DNA from: a virus
Virus record (IMG/VR): IMGVR_UViG_3300047375_000026
Span: 1-25,214 of that record
Strand: one strand, 5' to 3'
Length of the DNA stretch: 25,214 bases
A program made the position numbers and the translations under genes. This document shows positions 15,911-25,214 of this stretch, piece after piece. Within the stretch, counting starts at the first letter, position 1; each line of letters opens with the position of its first letter. The notes beneath the pieces are model-generated. The model worked only from the letters and a program-made list of their open reading frames with translations. It was not told the DNA's origin and did no database searches.

Positions 15911-18900
15911 ATGACAGTCACAGCGAATACAACTAGAAACGATTACTTAGCCGGAAATAACCAGAATGTGTACAACTATACGTTCCAGTTAAATGATGCC
16001 GCTGATGTTACTGTTATACTTAATGGCGTAATACAAACGCTAAACGTACACTATACCGTACAAGATTTAGGCGTAGGTACTGGCGGTACCATTACATTCA
16101 CATTAGTAGATTCTAATAACGACCCTATCTTCCCTACACAGGGACAGCAAATAAATATCTTAATGACAATGGAGTTAGATCGAGATACTGCATATCAACC
16201 TAATGGTGCGTTTTTATCTTCAGATGTTAATAATGATTATGATAGGTTATGGCTTGCCGCAAACCAACAACAAACGGCTATTAATCGCTCGCTAAGGCTA
16301 CAGGATCAAGACGCTACTTCAGGTAGTATGGAACTCCCACTTAAAGCAAGTAGGCTTAATAGGATGCTTGCATTTGATTCTGTTACTGGTGAGCCAATCG
16401 CAGGGCCAGATATTACGTCTGTTACTGAAGGGTTAACTTTATCTGCTACTTTGATTAATGGGAATAATACGAATGGCAATGATGTTATTTTCAATGACAA
16501 CGATAAGGCTAAATTTGGCACAGGATCGGATTTAGAAATATACCATGATGGTAACAATTCCGTTATTAAAGATTCTGGTACTGGCATTTTAAAGTATACA
16601 AGTAATAATAGTACTTTAGCCGGAGTAGTCTTTGAAATTGAGAATACGGATTCTACAAATTTATCAGGATCATTTATTCATTTTAAAGATAGTTATGGCG
16701 TAACTCCTGCCAAAATAGGCTCTTATGCAAACGCATTTTATATTTTAAATAGTTCTGATGAAAGAATGCTGACAACTACTAATAGTGGGGCTATAGAATT
16801 ATATCATTCGGATGATATTAAACTATCTACAACTTCTACTGGTGTAGATGTTACTGGAGAAATTACTGTTTCTGGAAATGTAGACGGACGAGATGTTGCT
16901 ACTGACGGAGTTAAGTTAGATAGTATTGAAGCCTCCGCAGATGTAACGGACACTATAAATGTCACAGCGGCAGGCGCATTGATGGATTCTGAGGTAACTA
17001 ACCTTTCAGAAGTTAAAGCGTTTTCTTCAGCAGATTACGCTACAGCGGCACAAGGTGCTAATGCTGACGCGGCACTTCCTAAAACTGGTGGAACACTGAC
17101 AGGCGATTTAAACTTTGGTGATAATGTCAAAGCTAAATTTGGCGGTGGAGGCGATTTAGAAATCTACCACAACGGAAGCAACTCTATAATCAAAGACAGT
17201 GGAGATGGAATATTACGATACACCAGTAGCAACTCAACAAATCAAGGCGTTGTTCTTGAAGTTGAGAATACAGACAGTACCAATCTATCAGGCTCATTTA
17301 TACATTTTAAAGACAGCCTTGGTATAACGCCTGCTAAGATAGGTGCGCTTGCCAATGAAATGTATTTAATGCGCGGTAGTAATAATGACCGCATATTAGT
17401 CACAAACAACAGTTCAGTAGAACTCTATCATGCAGATGATAAAAAGTTTGAAACTAGCAGTTCAGGTGCAAGCATATCGGGCGATATTGCTGTTACAGGT
17501 ACAGTAGATGGTCGTGATGTTGCTACTGATGGAACTAAGCTAGACGGCATAGACGCTTACGCAGATGTCACTGATGCTACAAATGTAGCGGCCGCAGGTG
17601 CTTTGATGGACAGTGAGGTAACTAATCTTGCTCAAGTTAAGGCGTTTGACTCGTCAGACTATGCTACATCGACACAAGGCACTACTGCTGATAATGCACT
17701 TCCAAAGTCAGGAGGGACACTTACAGGCAATTTAAATTTAGGTGATAACATTAAGGCGCAGTTTGGCGCGTCTAATGACCTTCAAATTTACCATGATAGT
17801 ACAAACTCTATAATTAAAGACTCAGGCACAGGAATTTTACGTTATACAAGTAGTAACGCTACTCAAGCAGGGGTTGTATTTGAAATAGAAAATACAGACT
17901 CTACTAATTTGTCAGGTTCGTTCATACATTTTAAAGACTCTTTAGGTATTACTCCTGCTAAAGTTGGTGCTTATGCTAATGAACTTTATATTATGCGCGG
18001 CAGTAATGACAATAGAATTATTACTACTAATACCGATGCTGTAGAACTGTATTATTCAGATGATGAAAAACTAACTACTACAAGTTCAGGTATAGATGTT
18101 ACTGGTACTGTTAAGTTTGATGGCTTAGAAGGAACTAACTCAGTCAATATAACTCAGGTATTAGATGAAGACAGCATGACATCTGATAGCGCGACTTCAT
18201 TATCAACACAGCAGTCTATTAAATCTTATGTAGATACAGCCATAGCAGGCGTTCCTCAAGGAGACATTACAGGCGTTACAGCAGGAACTAATCTTTCTGG
18301 TGGCGGTACAACTGGAAGCGTTAATCTTGATTTAGAAAATAATATTAGCTTGCAGAACATTACCTTAACTGGGTACTTGCGTGGGCCTTCAAACTTTACT
18401 ATTGATCCTGCGGCTCATGGGGATGATACTGGTACATTAGTTATTGCAGGAAATCTACAAGTTGATGGAACAACTACAACTATTAACTCTACTACCGTTG
18501 AGATTGCTGACCTTAATTTTAAAGTTGCTAAAGACGCTACTAGTAATGCAGAAGCTAACACTGGCGGCTTTACGGTAGGTGGCTCTAACGCTGAATTAAA
18601 GTATCTAAGCAGTGGCGATAAGTGGACGATGAATAAAACGCTTTCATTTGCGGATTCTTTAAAAACTACTTATGGCAATAATGATGACCTACAGATTTAC
18701 CATGATGGGTCGAATAGTTATATTAAAGATGTAGGTACAGGAAGATTAACACTACAGAGTGCTACTGACTTTTTAGTAGCAAATACTGCGAATACACAAA
18801 ATTACATATACGCTCAAGAGAGTGGTTATGTTCGTCTTTATCATTCAGGCTCAACAAAATTAGAAACAACTTCAACAGGCATAGACGTAACAGGAGTTAT

Positions 18901-20893
18901 AACGACTGATGGTCTTACAACAAGTGCTGACATTAACTTTGGTGACAATGACAAAGCTAAGTTTGGTGATAGTGGTGATTTAGAAATCTACCATGATGGG
19001 TCAAATTCTATCATTAAAGATTCAGGCACAGGAATACTTAGATACACTAGTAGCAATTCCTCAACTGCCGGAGTCGTATTTGAGATAGAAAACACAGATA
19101 GCGCAAACCTGTCTGGTTCATTTATACACTTTAAAGATAGCTTAGGAATAACCCCTGCAAAAATAGGGGCTTTTGCTAATGAATTGTACATTATGCGTGG
19201 CAGTAATAATGATCGCATACTGACTACAAATAGTGGCGCGGCTGAACTGTATTATTCAGATGATGAAAAACTAGCCACCACCTCCACAGGCATAGACGTT
19301 ACTGGCTCAGTGACAGCAGATTCGCTTACTGTTGATACTTCCGCAGGGCAACTTGACGTAGAGGCTCTTGGCGGTTCATCGGTAAAAGTTAAATCTAGCG
19401 GAAGTTTGAAGTTGCAGGGAACAGGAGGGTCGGTTGATTTAATTAACGGTTCAACCGAAGTCTTATCTACCACTTCTAGCGGAATTTCAGTCAACGGCAC
19501 AGCCACGATGGATGGGCTTACTGTAGATGGTGCGGCTGACATAGATTATCAATCTGGCGCAACAAACAACACCGCCCCAGATACGTTGAAAGTATCAAAC
19601 AAAACCACTGGCGTACATGCCGCAGGTTTAGGGGCGTCTATTAAGTTTGAGCATACAAACTCTTCCGCTAGTTATGCTGGGTCAAGAATATCTAACGTAT
19701 CAAATGCAGACCCCTTTACGTCTAACTTATCCTTTTACCCATATAATTATGGTTACAAAGAGGCTATGCGAATATCCAACAACGGAGACATCAGCTTCTA
19801 CGAGGACACAGGCACAACGGCTAAGTTCTTCTGGGATGCCTCTGCGGAGTCTTTGGGTATTGGTACGGATTCGCCTCAAGCACTAATTGATCTAACAGTC
19901 CCCCAAGCAAAAACCGCTACAGGTGGTGCAACCTTTGCCCAATTAGGCAAAACCAATGAATCAAGTGGCTATGCATCCCTCCAGTGTGAAGTCAAAGGTG
20001 GCTCATCAGCGGCAGATAGGAAATGGTCATTCCAGACTATTGAACAAGGTGTTGCCAATGCAGGGAGTATTGTTTTACAGCCTGATGGCGGCACCCTGAT
20101 GGTGGGTAATACTGACCCTACGCCTTACGACAGAACGTCAGGCAACGCTATTGCACTAGGAGATGGTCTTATATCTTCAGCGCAATCTGGTGGGAATGCG
20201 GCAATATTTAATCGCATGACAAACAATGGAAGCATTGTCCAGTTCCGCTATGGGGGCACAGCCGTAGGTAGTATAGCCTCTGAGGGAGGTGACTCTTTAG
20301 TAATACAATCAGGCACAACCAGTGGTTCAGGCCTTCTTTTTCACCCCACAGTAGCAAGTATAACTCCTGTGAGAAACAGCGTAAAAATAGATGCAACTAT
20401 TGATTTAGGTCGTTCTGGTTTTAGATTCAAAGACCTACACCTATCAGGCTCTTTAAAATCTACTGCCCCAACAACTTCAGCGTCTACCCCTGCATGGTTA
20501 TCTACAGCCAGTACTAATACTTCAGGACAAACACATTATCATGCAGTGTTTAAGTCTTTAAATGGCACAACGAACGGTAAAATCACTACTAACTACTTTG
20601 CTACAACTTACTCGACTACTTCTGATTACAGGGTTAAAGAAGATATACAGCCTGTTATTAATGCAACTGAGCGATTACTAAATTTAAATGCAATCAATTT
20701 CCAGTGGAAAGGCAGTGATATTAGAACGGATGGCTTTTTGGCACATGAGGTTGCTGAAATAATTCCAGAGGCCGTTGTTGGTGAAAAAGACGAAGATGAA
20801 TTGCAGTCCTTAGATCAATCTAAAATTGTCCCTTTGTTGGTTAAAACGATTCAGGAATTAGAGGCAAGAATAACGCAACTGGAGAATCAATAA
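15911..20893 (+). CDS. repeat-rich tail fibre protein with S74 chaperone C-terminus
   Basis: This is the host-recognition fibre, 1660 residues, about three times T7 gp17. The first 150 residues (TRNDYLAGNNQNVYNYTFQL, AANQQQTAINRSLRLQD) match the T7-type N-terminal domain that anchors fibres to the nozzle. A long beta-rich shaft follows with repeats built on DLEIYHDG, KDSGTG, FEIENTDS, SGSFIHFKDS and ELYYSDD, starting at residues 199, 407, 615, 918 and 1015. The C-terminus is a Peptidase_S74 intramolecular chaperone: SDYRVKEDI with Ser1571 and Lys1576 at the spacing of the known Ser/Lys dyad, then a coiled-coil end (LVKTIQELEARITQLENQ). Self-cleavage before Ser1571 would release about 90 residues after trimer folding. 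A GAGG ribosome binding site precedes the ATG. Confidence 0.93.
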   Translation: MTVTANTTRNDYLAGNNQNVYNYTFQLNDAADVTVILNGVIQTLNVHYTVQDLGVGTGGTITFTLVDSNNDPIFPTQGQQINILMTMELDRDTAYQPNGAFLSSDVNNDYDRLWLAANQQQTAINRSLRLQDQDATSGSMELPLKASRLNRMLAFDSVTGEPIAGPDITSVTEGLTLSATLINGNNTNGNDVIFNDNDKAKFGTGSDLEIYHDGNNSVIKDSGTGILKYTSNNSTLAGVVFEIENTDSTNLSGSFIHFKDSYGVTPAKIGSYANAFYILNSSDERMLTTTNSGAIELYHSDDIKLSTTSTGVDVTGEITVSGNVDGRDVATDGVKLDSIEASADVTDTINVTAAGALMDSEVTNLSEVKAFSSADYATAAQGANADAALPKTGGTLTGDLNFGDNVKAKFGGGGDLEIYHNGSNSIIKDSGDGILRYTSSNSTNQGVVLEVENTDSTNLSGSFIHFKDSLGITPAKIGALANEMYLMRGSNNDRILVTNNSSVELYHADDKKFETSSSGASISGDIAVTGTVDGRDVATDGTKLDGIDAYADVTDATNVAAAGALMDSEVTNLAQVKAFDSSDYATSTQGTTADNALPKSGGTLTGNLNLGDNIKAQFGASNDLQIYHDSTNSIIKDSGTGILRYTSSNATQAGVVFEIENTDSTNLSGSFIHFKDSLGITPAKVGAYANELYIMRGSNDNRIITTNTDAVELYYSDDEKLTTTSSGIDVTGTVKFDGLEGTNSVNITQVLDEDSMTSDSATSLSTQQSIKSYVDTAIAGVPQGDITGVTAGTNLSGGGTTGSVNLDLENNISLQNITLTGYLRGPSNFTIDPAAHGDDTGTLVIAGNLQVDGTTTTINSTTVEIADLNFKVAKDATSNAEANTGGFTVGGSNAELKYLSSGDKWTMNKTLSFADSLKTTYGNNDDLQIYHDGSNSYIKDVGTGRLTLQSATDFLVANTANTQNYIYAQESGYVRLYHSGSTKLETTSTGIDVTGVITTDGLTTSADINFGDNDKAKFGDSGDLEIYHDGSNSIIKDSGTGILRYTSSNSSTAGVVFEIENTDSANLSGSFIHFKDSLGITPAKIGAFANELYIMRGSNNDRILTTNSGAAELYYSDDEKLATTSTGIDVTGSVTADSLTVDTSAGQLDVEALGGSSVKVKSSGSLKLQGTGGSVDLINGSTEVLSTTSSGISVNGTATMDGLTVDGAADIDYQSGATNNTAPDTLKVSNKTTGVHAAGLGASIKFEHTNSSASYAGSRISNVSNADPFTSNLSFYPYNYGYKEAMRISNNGDISFYEDTGTTAKFFWDASAESLGIGTDSPQALIDLTVPQAKTATGGATFAQLGKTNESSGYASLQCEVKGGSSAADRKWSFQTIEQGVANAGSIVLQPDGGTLMVGNTDPTPYDRTSGNAIALGDGLISSAQSGGNAAIFNRMTNNGSIVQFRYGGTAVGSIASEGGDSLVIQSGTTSGSGLLFHPTVASITPVRNSVKIDATIDLGRSGFRFKDLHLSGSLKSTAPTTSASTPAWLSTASTNTSGQTHYHAVFKSLNGTTNGKITTNYFATTYSTTSDYRVKEDIQPVINATERLLNLNAINFQWKGSDIRTDGFLAHEVAEIIPEAVVGEKDEDELQSLDQSKIVPLLVKTIQELEARITQLENQ
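16505..19309 (+). repeat. diverged internal repeats of the fibre shaft
   Basis: A module of about 120 residues starting KAKFG recurs at fibre residues 199, 407, 615 and 1015, with a shorter, more diverged copy at 918. The first three starts (16505, 17129, 17753) are exactly 624 bases, or 208 codons, apart. Copies one and two also carry a second module of about 88 residues (DVDGRDVATDG-like, then GALMDSEVTNL). Protein similarity is high, while synonymous sites differ widely between copies. Confidence 0.9.
20621..20893 (+). other. Peptidase_S74 intramolecular chaperone domain, predicted cleavage at Ser1571
   Basis: The segment begins SDYRVKEDIQPV. The Ser and the Lys five residues later match the catalytic dyad spacing known for endosialidase-type chaperone domains. 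The remaining 90 residues contain FLAHEVAEIIPEAV and a terminal coiled coil. The domain would trimerise the shaft and then cleave itself off. Confidence 0.8.
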
Positions 20894-21901: not shown

Positions 21902-22242
21902 TGAGATACTTTCAACTAAAAGACTTTGATTGTCAGGAGACAGGCAACAATGAGATGTGTTCTGATTTTCTTGATAAGTTGGATGAGTTACGCCATGTAT
22001 GCGGATTTCCGTTTATCATTACCAGTGGGTACAGGGACAAGACCCACAGCATTGAAGCTAGAAAGGCAAAGGTCGGAACCCACGGACAAGGGATAGCGGC
22101 AGACATTAGAATTAATAACGGTAACGAAGCCTACGAGATTATAAAGAACGCTCAGTCAATGGGCTTCAATGGAATAGGGGTAGCCAAGACCTTTATCCAT
22201 GTAGACACTAGAAAGACTATGCCTGTTATCTGGACTTACTAA
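21901..22242 (+). CDS. endolysin, M15-family peptidase
   Basis: The 113-residue product is a zinc peptidase that would cut peptide bonds of peptidoglycan stem peptides at lysis. It shows the M15 pattern: TSGYRDKTHS at about 41-50, then GTHGQGIAADI with His61 and Asp68, and FIHVDTR with His100 and Asp102. His61, Asp68 and His100 are the expected zinc ligands, and Asp102 follows as in the family. There is no signal peptide, so export depends on the holins just upstream. The length is typical for a single-domain enzyme without a wall-binding domain. Its last 17 bases overlap, on the other strand, a small basic gene, so the two transcription units converge here. Confidence 0.93.
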   Translation: MRYFQLKDFDCQETGNNEMCSDFLDKLDELRHVCGFPFIITSGYRDKTHSIEARKAKVGTHGQGIAADIRINNGNEAYEIIKNAQSMGFNGIGVAKTFIHVDTRKTMPVIWTY

Positions 22243-23818: not shown

Positions 23819-24250
23819 CTATTTAGTAATATCTTCAGTCATGTCTTTTGAAGGGAATGGTATGTGTATACCAGTTCGCTCCACTAAACCCCGATTGATA
23901 GCGTCATATACTTTAGCTACTTTGTCAGAGTGTATCTCGGTAGTAGATTCTATGCCGTACATGGTGTTTTGAATCTGCTTCCAAAATAATTTAAATGATT
24001 TTTGAGTCCACGGTATTTCAATGTCACCTTTCATAAACTTGGCGTTCATCTGGTGGTATATACCTGCATCGTTTAGACGTCTAGCCGCCTCTTTAAAGTA
24101 CACTTCCAGTGCCGCCTGTTGCTTTGGTGATCGTGGTTTACCAAGTTTGTAATTAAACGTAACGTATTTCTTTTCCTCATACAGTTCAGTTGCAAACTTT
24201 AGGTAGTCTTCCAAGGACTTGTCGTTTTTGACTGTATAACCTTCAGGCAT
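23819..24250 (-). CDS. NinB-like recombination protein
   Basis: I start this gene at 24250, where TAATG joins it to the preceding stop and AAGGA lies about 7 bases upstream; the frame is open to 24271 but has no better site there. The 143-residue length is close to lambda NinB (Orf), a single-strand DNA-binding recombination mediator. The pattern KPRSPKQQAALEVYFKEAAR at about 38-57 parallels the NinB RSLDQN region, and GIESTTEIHSDKVAKVYDAI then ERTGIHIPFPS follows as in phage proteins I remember next to replication genes. Direct similarity to lambda NinB is weak, so the function is inferred from the pattern, the size and nearby ninG. Confidence 0.6.
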   Translation of the reverse strand: MPEGYTVKNDKSLEDYLKFATELYEEKKYVTFNYKLGKPRSPKQQAALEVYFKEAARRLNDAGIYHQMNAKFMKGDIEIPWTQKSFKLFWKQIQNTMYGIESTTEIHSDKVAKVYDAINRGLVERTGIHIPFPSKDMTEDITK

Positions 24251-24744
24251 TAGAGTTTCCTTCTTAACCATTTTGCACTTATGAATTCAGCGTGGCTTTC
24301 AAAGACGCTACTCGCTAACTGTGGTTGAAAGTGGCTTTTATTTACAGCTTTAGATATTGGTCTTACATGGTGATTACTAAACGTAGTAGCCTTACCTATC
24401 CTTTTGCTTAACGCATTTGGTTTAAGACCAGTAATCTCAGCTAATTTTTTAATAGTGTATTTTTCTCCTACTTTAAAACGAGCATCATCTCCTACGAAAG
24501 TCATCAATTTTTGTTGATGTTGATTGCCATTAAACTGTGTTTGAACGCGCTTAATTTTCTTAAAGTTATTGTCTCTCGCAGTTGCCTTGTATCTCAGCCG
24601 TTCGCATACAAATGTTTTAGATACGCCAAATGCTTTAGCCAACTCGTCCCTGCTGTAAAATGTACCTGATGTTAGCTTAGGATTTTTACCCTTATACTCA
24701 ATTAAAATTGTTCTGCTATCGTGTTTCATAATTAATTCGCCCAT
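24250..24744 (-). CDS. protein with two similar HTH-like segments
   Basis: The 164-residue basic protein contains two similar segments: GTFYSRDELAKAFGVSKTFV (about 27-46, then CERLR) and GEKYTIKKLAEITGLKPNAL (about 93-112, then SKRIG). Each reads as a turn followed by a helix-turn-helix of the kind that selects DNA sites, so the protein is probably a DNA-binding regulator or replication accessory with an internal duplication. Between them is a Gln-rich linker. The C-terminus ends SAKWLRRKL. The start is uncertain: ATG at 24744 overlaps the upstream gene by 13 bases, whereas ATG at 24729 lies just after its stop; neither has a strong ribosome binding site. Confidence 0.7.
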   Translation of the reverse strand: MGELIMKHDSRTILIEYKGKNPKLTSGTFYSRDELAKAFGVSKTFVCERLRYKATARDNNFKKIKRVQTQFNGNQHQQKLMTFVGDDARFKVGEKYTIKKLAEITGLKPNALSKRIGKATTFSNHHVRPISKAVNKSHFQPQLASSVFESHAEFISAKWLRRKL

Positions 24745-25214
24745 GATGTGTCTGTTAGTGCATCTTCAATAGATCGATCTTTTATTGTCCCTTCTTTTCG
24801 AGGCTTAGATCGCTGTTTACGGTTAGTTTCCCACGTTCTCACGCAAGCCTTCCAGTCTTTCATTTTGTTCTTACCTACCATCCATCCCTTTGCTTGATAG
24901 AAATCAATAAAGGTTTGTGGATCAACTGAATTGTTCCTTTGATCACAATAATCATTAACTTCATCAACACTGGGAGGAGTGAAACGAGTCCCCTTATTAG
25001 TTGTATTATTAAATGTATTATTAATTGTCTTATTATCCTCCATTATTTTATGGGGAGGGTCCCCATCATTTTGTGGGGAGGGTATACATTTTTTAATGGG
25101 GAGGGTATCCATTATTTTATCCATACCCCCCTCGTTAATTCTTATGTATCTTTTAAGGACTTGCTTAGTACCTTCTTTGTATTCAAGTTGTACTGTAATG
25201 TATCCTTTTGTCTT
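24732..25214 (-). CDS. replication initiation-type protein, C-terminal part (N-terminus beyond the window)
   Basis: The frame is open from the right edge with no stop, so the gene is cut; an internal ATG at 25124 is not its start. The first visible part (KGYITVQLEYKEGTKQVLKR then YIRINEGGMDKI) looks like the wing and end of a winged-helix DNA-binding domain. Then comes a Pro-rich and Asn/Thr-rich linker, then a C-terminal domain, FTPPSVDEVNDYCDQRNNSV through FYQAKGWMVGKNKMKDWKAC and VRTWE, a pattern common at the end of phage HTH replication proteins. By analogy with lambda O it would bind the origin and load helicase. The linker DNA holds iteron-like and AT-rich repeats. Confidence 0.8.
   Translation of the reverse strand, partial: KTKGYITVQLEYKEGTKQVLKRYIRINEGGMDKIMDTLPIKKCIPSPQNDGDPPHKIMEDNKTINNTFNNTTNKGTRFTPPSVDEVNDYCDQRNNSVDPQTFIDFYQAKGWMVGKNKMKDWKACVRTWETNRKQRSKPRKEGTIKDRSIEDALTDTSWAN
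24991..25038. repeat. four 12-bp AT-rich repeats, candidate DNA unwinding element
   Basis: Units begin at 24991, 25003, 25015 and 25027. All share TTATTA at positions 4-9, and the two central units are identical over their first ten bases, GTATTATTAA. They encode the Asn/Thr-rich linker of the replication protein. They adjoin the 23-bp repeats, as an unwinding region adjoins iterons in lambda-type origins. Confidence 0.6.
25051..25119. repeat. three 23-bp direct repeats, candidate replication-initiator iterons
   Basis: Units start at 25051, 25074 and 25097. Each begins with the exact core TGGGGAGGGT and continues with a diverged AT-rich half. An additional half-unit, TCCATTATTTTA, at 25039-25050 matches the end of unit three. 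Because 23 is not a multiple of three, each core is read in a different codon frame (Thr-Leu-Pro, Pro-Ser-Pro, Pro-Pro-His), so the repetition is at DNA level. GGGTAT at 25103-25108 also pairs with ATACCC at 25123-25128. Confidence 0.7.

Follow-up and report, generated by a model that had tools for sequence, protein, structure and literature searches.

A candidate replication origin in the linker-coding part of an HTH_36-type phage initiator gene

An initiator gene and the repeats within it

The window analysed here, a 25,214-nucleotide stretch of viral DNA (IMG/VR record IMGVR_UViG_3300047375_000026), ends within a gene on the (−) strand that encodes a predicted replication initiator. Only the 3’ two thirds of the gene fall inside the window; most of the N-terminal winged helix is encoded beyond its end and was read from the contigs L004 and L088. 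The complete gene is present in the first of these, an overlapping contig (L004:1648-2325) that is 100% identical over the shared part, and encodes a protein of 226 aa. The N-terminus of this protein matches HTH_36 in Pfam (PF13730, E = 1e-10, 41.7 bits at a cut-off of 25), and among the PHROG models the protein matches a replication initiation protein (E = 3e-31), the ‘replication initiation O-like’ model phrog_678 (E = 5e-12) and a ‘DnaD-like’ model. Neither Phage_rep_O (PF04492) nor RepA_N gave a Pfam match at E ≤ 1. AlphaFold2 predicts a confident winged helix (residues 1–95), a disordered linker (residues 96–140, pLDDT < 50) and a helical C-terminal domain. Searching solved structures by sequence with the N-terminal family gave no good match (best E 0.066). 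By fold, the N-terminal domain matches RepA (4pql, Z 9.3, 3.6 Å, 91 residues; 4pt7, Z 9.2), with LexA and riboflavin kinase scoring equally. The C-terminal domain has no match in Pfam or NCBIfam and, when predicted alone, found no useful fold match among the 8 chains compared (best Z 3.5), and a nucleotide search against named phages returned short matches in this domain only. The features of the locus are listed below.

24732–25214, (−) strand: initiator gene, 3’ two thirds, residues 67–226 of 226; open reading frame cut by the window end
24732–24990, (−) strand: C-terminal domain (F.DFYxxKGWMVGKNKMKDWKA.VRTWE), probable replisome-recruiting part
24993–25127, (−) strand: linker-coding stretch, residues 96–140, from AlphaFold2 pLDDT, with coordinates by arithmetic from the gene end
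24994–25041, (−) strand: AT-rich block of four 12-mers, peptide EDNKTINNTFNNTTNK, probable DNA-unwinding element
25040–25051, (−) strand: A-box 4, ATAAAATAATGG, not counted in the initial annotation
25052–25061, (−) strand: GC block 3, GACCCTCCCC, with the ACCCTCCCC core at 25052–25060
25063–25074, (−) strand: A-box 3, ACAAAATGATGG
25075–25084, (−) strand: GC block 2, TACCCTCCCC
25086–25097, (−) strand: A-box 2, ATTAAAAAATGT
25098–25107, (−) strand: GC block 1, TACCCTCCCC
25109–25120, (−) strand: A-box 1, ATAAAATAATGG
25124–25133, (−) strand: degenerate inverted GC block, GAGGGGGGTA on the coding strand

The gene downstream of the initiator (24250–24744, (−) strand) overlaps its 3’ end at 24732–24744. 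The product of this gene contains two HTH-like segments that lie just under the Pfam cut-off (HTH_10, 22.9 of 23.1 bits) and has no P/DnaC match, and no P/DnaC-type gene lies directly downstream of the initiator in the window. The neighbourhood had been described as ninB/ninG-like. The ninG assignment is borne out by Pfam, and the ninB assignment is not: the gene concerned (23819–24271, (−) strand) gave nothing that reaches threshold in Pfam, PHROG or NCBIfam, and the hint comes through its homologue in the related contig G016, which has a sub-threshold PHROG match to NinB/Orf (E 0.08).

Read along the coding (−) strand, the array begins with the degenerate inverted GC block, continues with four A-rich boxes whose starts are exactly 23 bp apart and which alternate with three GC blocks, and ends in the AT-rich 12-mers. 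The 10-mer TGGGGAGGGT occurs at 25051–25060, 25074–25083 and 25097–25106 and nowhere else in the 25-kb record, and the repeat family starting at 25041, 25064 and 25087 has start-to-start spacings of 23 and 23 bp. These cores and this spacing are as described in the initial annotation, which had counted three repeats where there are four A-boxes; the additional box, at 25040–25051, fills what had been taken for a 12-bp gap between the iterons and the AT repeats. The four AT-rich 12-mers are likewise present, though their best register (24994–25041) is 3 nt off the one first assigned (24991–25038). The best box in the window has inverted arms (CCAT-AAAATA-ATGG) and 23-bp spacing, and the A-box arms in this phage are less well kept than its GC blocks. 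A step of 23 bp corresponds to 2.19 turns at 10.5 bp per turn, so successive sites are rotated by ~69 degrees and the earlier statement that they occupy similar faces of the DNA is a loose one. The stretch encoding linker residues 96–140 coincides with the repeats and is almost exactly the interval first noted, in agreement with the proposal that the repeats lie in the linker-coding part of a replication-type gene.

Since 23 is not divisible by 3, successive copies fall into three different reading frames and encode the unrelated peptides TLPI, IPSPQ and DPPHK, which indicates that the constraint is on the DNA. The three-unit out-of-frame repeat scores 28/32. When synonymous codons were shuffled over the complete gene, none of 3000 shuffles attained this score (maximum 25), and the array is the sole place in the window that scores within 2 of this value. 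The AT-rich stretch adjoins the iterons on their 3’ side, as in lambda-type ori, and A+T content is 80% in 24991–25050 compared with 61% in the window. The AT-rich 12-mers are in frame, so that their repetition does not by itself tell a constraint on the DNA from one on the peptide, and the AT minimum of the window gene alone was not significant against synonymous shuffles (p = 0.16).

Linker architecture among related initiators

Initiators with the same N-terminal domain were gathered from viral contigs, named phages and plasmids, giving a set of 47 with N-terminal domains < 85% identical. Repeats of at least 12/14 are found in the linkers at 22, 23 and 24 bp in 15, 16 and 23 of these genes, and two-step repeats at 45, 46 and 47 bp in 16, 5 and 4 genes, compared with 0–1 repeats at 22–24 bp and 0–3 at 45–47 bp in the rest of the same genes. 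An out-of-frame repeat was significant by synonymous shuffling (p < 0.05) in 24 of the 47, where ~2 are expected; that no such repeat reaches significance in the other 23 is partly because many use a 24-bp, in-frame spacing. The GC blocks are common to phages of very different hosts. Their TACCC/GGGTA motif is 3.9 times commoner in linkers than expected by synonymous shuffling (73 vs 18.9) and shows no enrichment in the rest of the genes (37 vs 45.3 expected). Repeats, spacing and the AT block persist among relatives of the protein while the linker peptide varies, except that in the nearest sister group (e.g. L009–L014) what is left of the three-copy GC core is one inverted copy plus degenerate ones. 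The outer A-boxes of this sister group keep a 45-bp (22+23) distance, and its block corresponding to 25124–25133 is a perfect inverted GGGGAGGGTA. Taken together, these comparisons suggest that diverged initiator linkers tend to keep the 22–24 bp spacing, the GC blocks and the AT-rich block.

An Asn/Thr-rich, AT-rich block follows the array in 44 of the 47 relatives, and its codon usage across the family is distinctive. AAT is used at 159/166 positions vs 577/799, ACC does not occur, and ACA/ACT and AGT are strongly preferred, AGT being chosen over TCT/TCA of equal composition (p = 7e-5). This suggests that the AT block is a specific triplet-like sequence (AATAATACAAGTATTAATAATACA), beyond mere AT richness, and possibly a single-strand binding motif comparable to DnaA-trios. 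ATT is also preferred over ATA in the AT block of HTH_36 initiator linkers (e.g. L161 gene nt 380–420).

Repeat arms, the recognition helix and module exchange

The arms around the AAAA vary between phages and largely agree among the copies within one phage. We analysed their covariation with the initiator in 42 sequences (< 80% identical) with clear iterons, a set that includes a second round of relatives, over 62 N-terminal columns. Recognition-helix position 8 predicts the inner arm dinucleotide better than any other column (z 8.1), with position 5 ranking second (z 4.7); for the middle dinucleotide the strongest predictor is helix position 4 (z 5.2). Arginine at position 8 is accompanied by CA in 16 of 17 sequences, and other residues in 0 of 25 (Fisher 1e-10). 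In a partial Mantel test the arms follow the helix given the rest of the domain (r 0.39, p = 0.0002), compared with at most 0.17 for 300 control sets of other variable columns, and the arms show no relation to the rest of the domain (r 0.00). The iterons were detected without using the protein, so the covariation is not circular. The automatic iteron register is shifted in a few relatives (e.g. L015, L051 and L285), and because these were kept in the set the covariation is weakened rather than helped.

The covariation supports binding of the repeats by the initiator's own N-terminal domain, and it suggests a tentative helix-to-iteron code in which R at position 8 would specify CA.AAAA.TG, K, N or S mostly AG.AAAA.CT, D, E, L or I mostly GA.AAAA.TC, and G mostly AT.AAAA.AT. 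The window phage has glycine at this position and belongs to a small class whose boxes are mostly AT around the AAAA; the helix-arm contact is less certain here than in the R class because the arms are less kept and the G class has few members. Nothing on such a recognition code or on AATAATACA was found in the largely open-access literature searched.

Comparison of two relatives, L008:2653-3330 and L017:1928-2644, revealed an exchange within the gene. The first 360 nt are identical and the next 60 nt are 95% identical, after which the two are abruptly unrelated, the switch point lying just 3’ of the AT block. The helix, the iterons and the AT block are unchanged, and the C-terminal domains are of the GKNKMKDWK type in one and the YPRK type in the other. 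Another C-terminal domain stands in place of the GKNKMKDWK type in L016–L022, and phages and prophages of several phyla in turn carry the GKNKMKDWKAxVRTWE domain (L174–L252) behind many unrelated N-termini. By these alignments the HTH and the putative origin are exchanged as one module. The L008/L017 swap is what would be expected if origin recognition and helicase recruitment were separate modules, with the origin travelling with the DNA-binding part. The chimeric initiators of the plasmids pPR9 and pUSA03 are a published parallel: in pPR9, a functional replicon, the C-terminus of pSK41 is preceded by a pfam13730 (HTH_36) N-terminus together with a new stretch of origin (PMC5703833). The pUSA03/pPR9 rep was not found among the plasmids with two family members, so this experimental anchor comes from the review (PMC5703833) only.

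Known intragenic origins and the proposed mechanism

An origin inside its own initiator gene is a known layout, found in lambda, SPP1, Tuc2009 and pSK41. In lambda the mapped origin lies inside gene O (PMC7466680), and Stx phages are alike; the annotated lambda iterons (CCCTC-AAAA-CGAGGG) are 20, 24 and 23 bp apart and lie upstream of the AT-rich part of O. The window array resembles them in that its coding-strand iterons have arms flanking AAAA and lie midway along the initiator gene, with an AT-rich stretch on the 3’ side. It differs in its prominent GC blocks between the A-boxes and in the initiator itself, which is an HTH_36 and not a Phage_rep_O protein and is not directly followed by a P/DnaC-type gene. 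The original description as lambda-O-type is therefore apt for the layout and not for the Pfam family. In SPP1, oriL consists of direct repeats and an AT-rich unwinding element inside gene 38, which encodes the origin-binding protein (PMC6316719), and judged by this description it has the same combination of intragenic repeats and AT-rich element as the window; SPP1, however, also has oriR as another origin and itself encodes a loader (gp39) and a helicase (gp40). The RepA_N plasmid pSK41 has an origin central in rep, a winged-helix N-terminus, a linker encoded by the origin and a host-specific C-terminus (PMC5703833). The window gene is comparable in its central putative origin and in the linker that this encodes; its predicted winged helix fits RepA structures no better than generic winged helices, and it has no RepA_N match by Pfam. 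The Rep of Lactococcus phage Tuc2009 is annotated as ‘contains origin of replication’ and is DnaD-like, in line with the PHROG ‘DnaD-like’ match of the window protein. Its linker, however, has 15-bp repeats and not arm-AAAA-arm iterons at 22–24 bp, and in the TP901-1 rep gene, too, 15-bp repeats stand in place of the architecture described here.

We consider it very probable that the array is the phage's replication origin, situated where the gene of its own initiator codes for the linker. It would work as follows. The N-terminal winged helix would bind the 23-bp iteron array and, through its recognition helix, read the arms that flank AAAA in every A-box; the GC blocks would be a family-wide element, probably read by a non-varying part of the protein. 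The nucleoprotein complex would then open the adjoining AT-rich 12-mers, and the C-terminal domain, tethered by the disordered linker, would bring in the replicative helicase or its loader. The helicase is probably the host's, as no helicase or loader gene was seen beside the initiator. We infer the binding of initiator to iterons from sequence, and the melting and helicase recruitment by analogy with lambda, SPP1 and pSK41. Both the place and the function given to the origin in the initial annotation are supported by repeat conservation, DNA-level constraint and covariation. The GC-skew check suggested at that stage did find a local cumulative minimum near the initiator, 60–386 bp upstream of its start, in four related contigs, but it is uninformative: the minimum coincides with divergent transcription, which explains it equally well, and we give it little weight. 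GC skew was also rejected as an origin locator in the window, where the cumulative curve peaks away from the origin, at 22,182, the point at which transcription turns.

The array might instead be mainly an operator, through which the initiator represses its own gene or operon while replication starts elsewhere. Winged helices of such a fold are often repressors (MarR and LexA types in the Foldseek and VIA matches), and binding there would produce the same covariation. However, the array is inside the coding region, ~300 nt from the start codon, it is followed by the AT-rich block in 44 of 47 relatives, and origins with this layout have been mapped in lambda (PMC7466680), SPP1 (PMC6316719) and pSK41 (PMC5703833). 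We judge a mainly operator function improbable; a dual role as operator and origin is possible. Another reading is that some other protein of the host or phage, such as a host initiator or a nucleoid protein, binds the array in place of the initiator encoded there. The occurrence of the GC blocks in phages of very different hosts, and the second HTH-like protein encoded directly downstream (24250–24744), would fit such a binder, but variation in the arms follows the recognition helix of the initiator itself and is unrelated to the remainder of the domain, and HTH and array are exchanged together, which makes this very improbable.

That the repeats are a by-product of a low-complexity linker peptide, with no function in the DNA, we find hardly credible. 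The linker is predicted to be disordered and the 12-bp AT repeats are in frame, both of which would fit a peptide-level cause; this explanation is contradicted by the 23-bp copies, which lie in three frames and encode different peptides. Moreover, the repeat is lost on synonymous shuffling (0/3000), codons in the AT block show a preference that base composition does not account for (AGT over TCT/TCA, p = 7e-5), and the arms track the DNA-reading helix.

Beyond this locus, we lean slightly towards a general reading for HTH_36 phage initiators, in which the origin would lie in the linker and follow one architecture (GC block, phage-specific arms around AAAA, AT block), the arms would obey a simple helix-arm code, and a mobile ‘HTH plus origin’ unit would move between different helicase-recruiting domains. 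Its scope would run from Lactobacillus, Staphylococcus and Fusobacterium phages to environmental podovirus-like phages. Within the literature searched, the family-wide architecture and the tentative helix-to-iteron code are new. If the general reading is true, a large class of phages would have origins that can be located straight from their sequence, and the same coding-hidden origin architecture would be recognisable across Bacillota, Fusobacteria and uncultured environmental phages. With helix and arms varying together, origin finding and initiator specificity would become sequence-level predictions, and the arrangement suggests how initiator genes could swap their helicase-recruiting end with origin recognition intact.

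The joining of a podovirus-type virion module to a lambda-O-type origin had been singled out as notable, but the combination is not unusual. The isolate whose portal matches best, Methylophilales phage MEP301, likewise has an O-like initiator and ERF/YqaJ genes alongside a podovirus-type virion. Its gp55 (L346:34057-34662), annotated as hypothetical, matches PHROG replication initiators (phrog_270, E = 1e-7), and no iterons were found in the gp55 gene. In the related contig G016 the initiator is the first gene of a rightward operon, with a NinG-like gene further down, and a divergent leftward operon encodes a Sak annealing protein and a YqaJ nuclease, an arrangement that resembles the lambda early region. 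The window also carries a 1660-aa tail-fibre-like gene (15911–20893, (+) strand) with repeated EIYHDG/IIKDSGTGILRYTS segments, which in the otherwise close G016 is replaced by several unrelated genes (L335:7450-10687).
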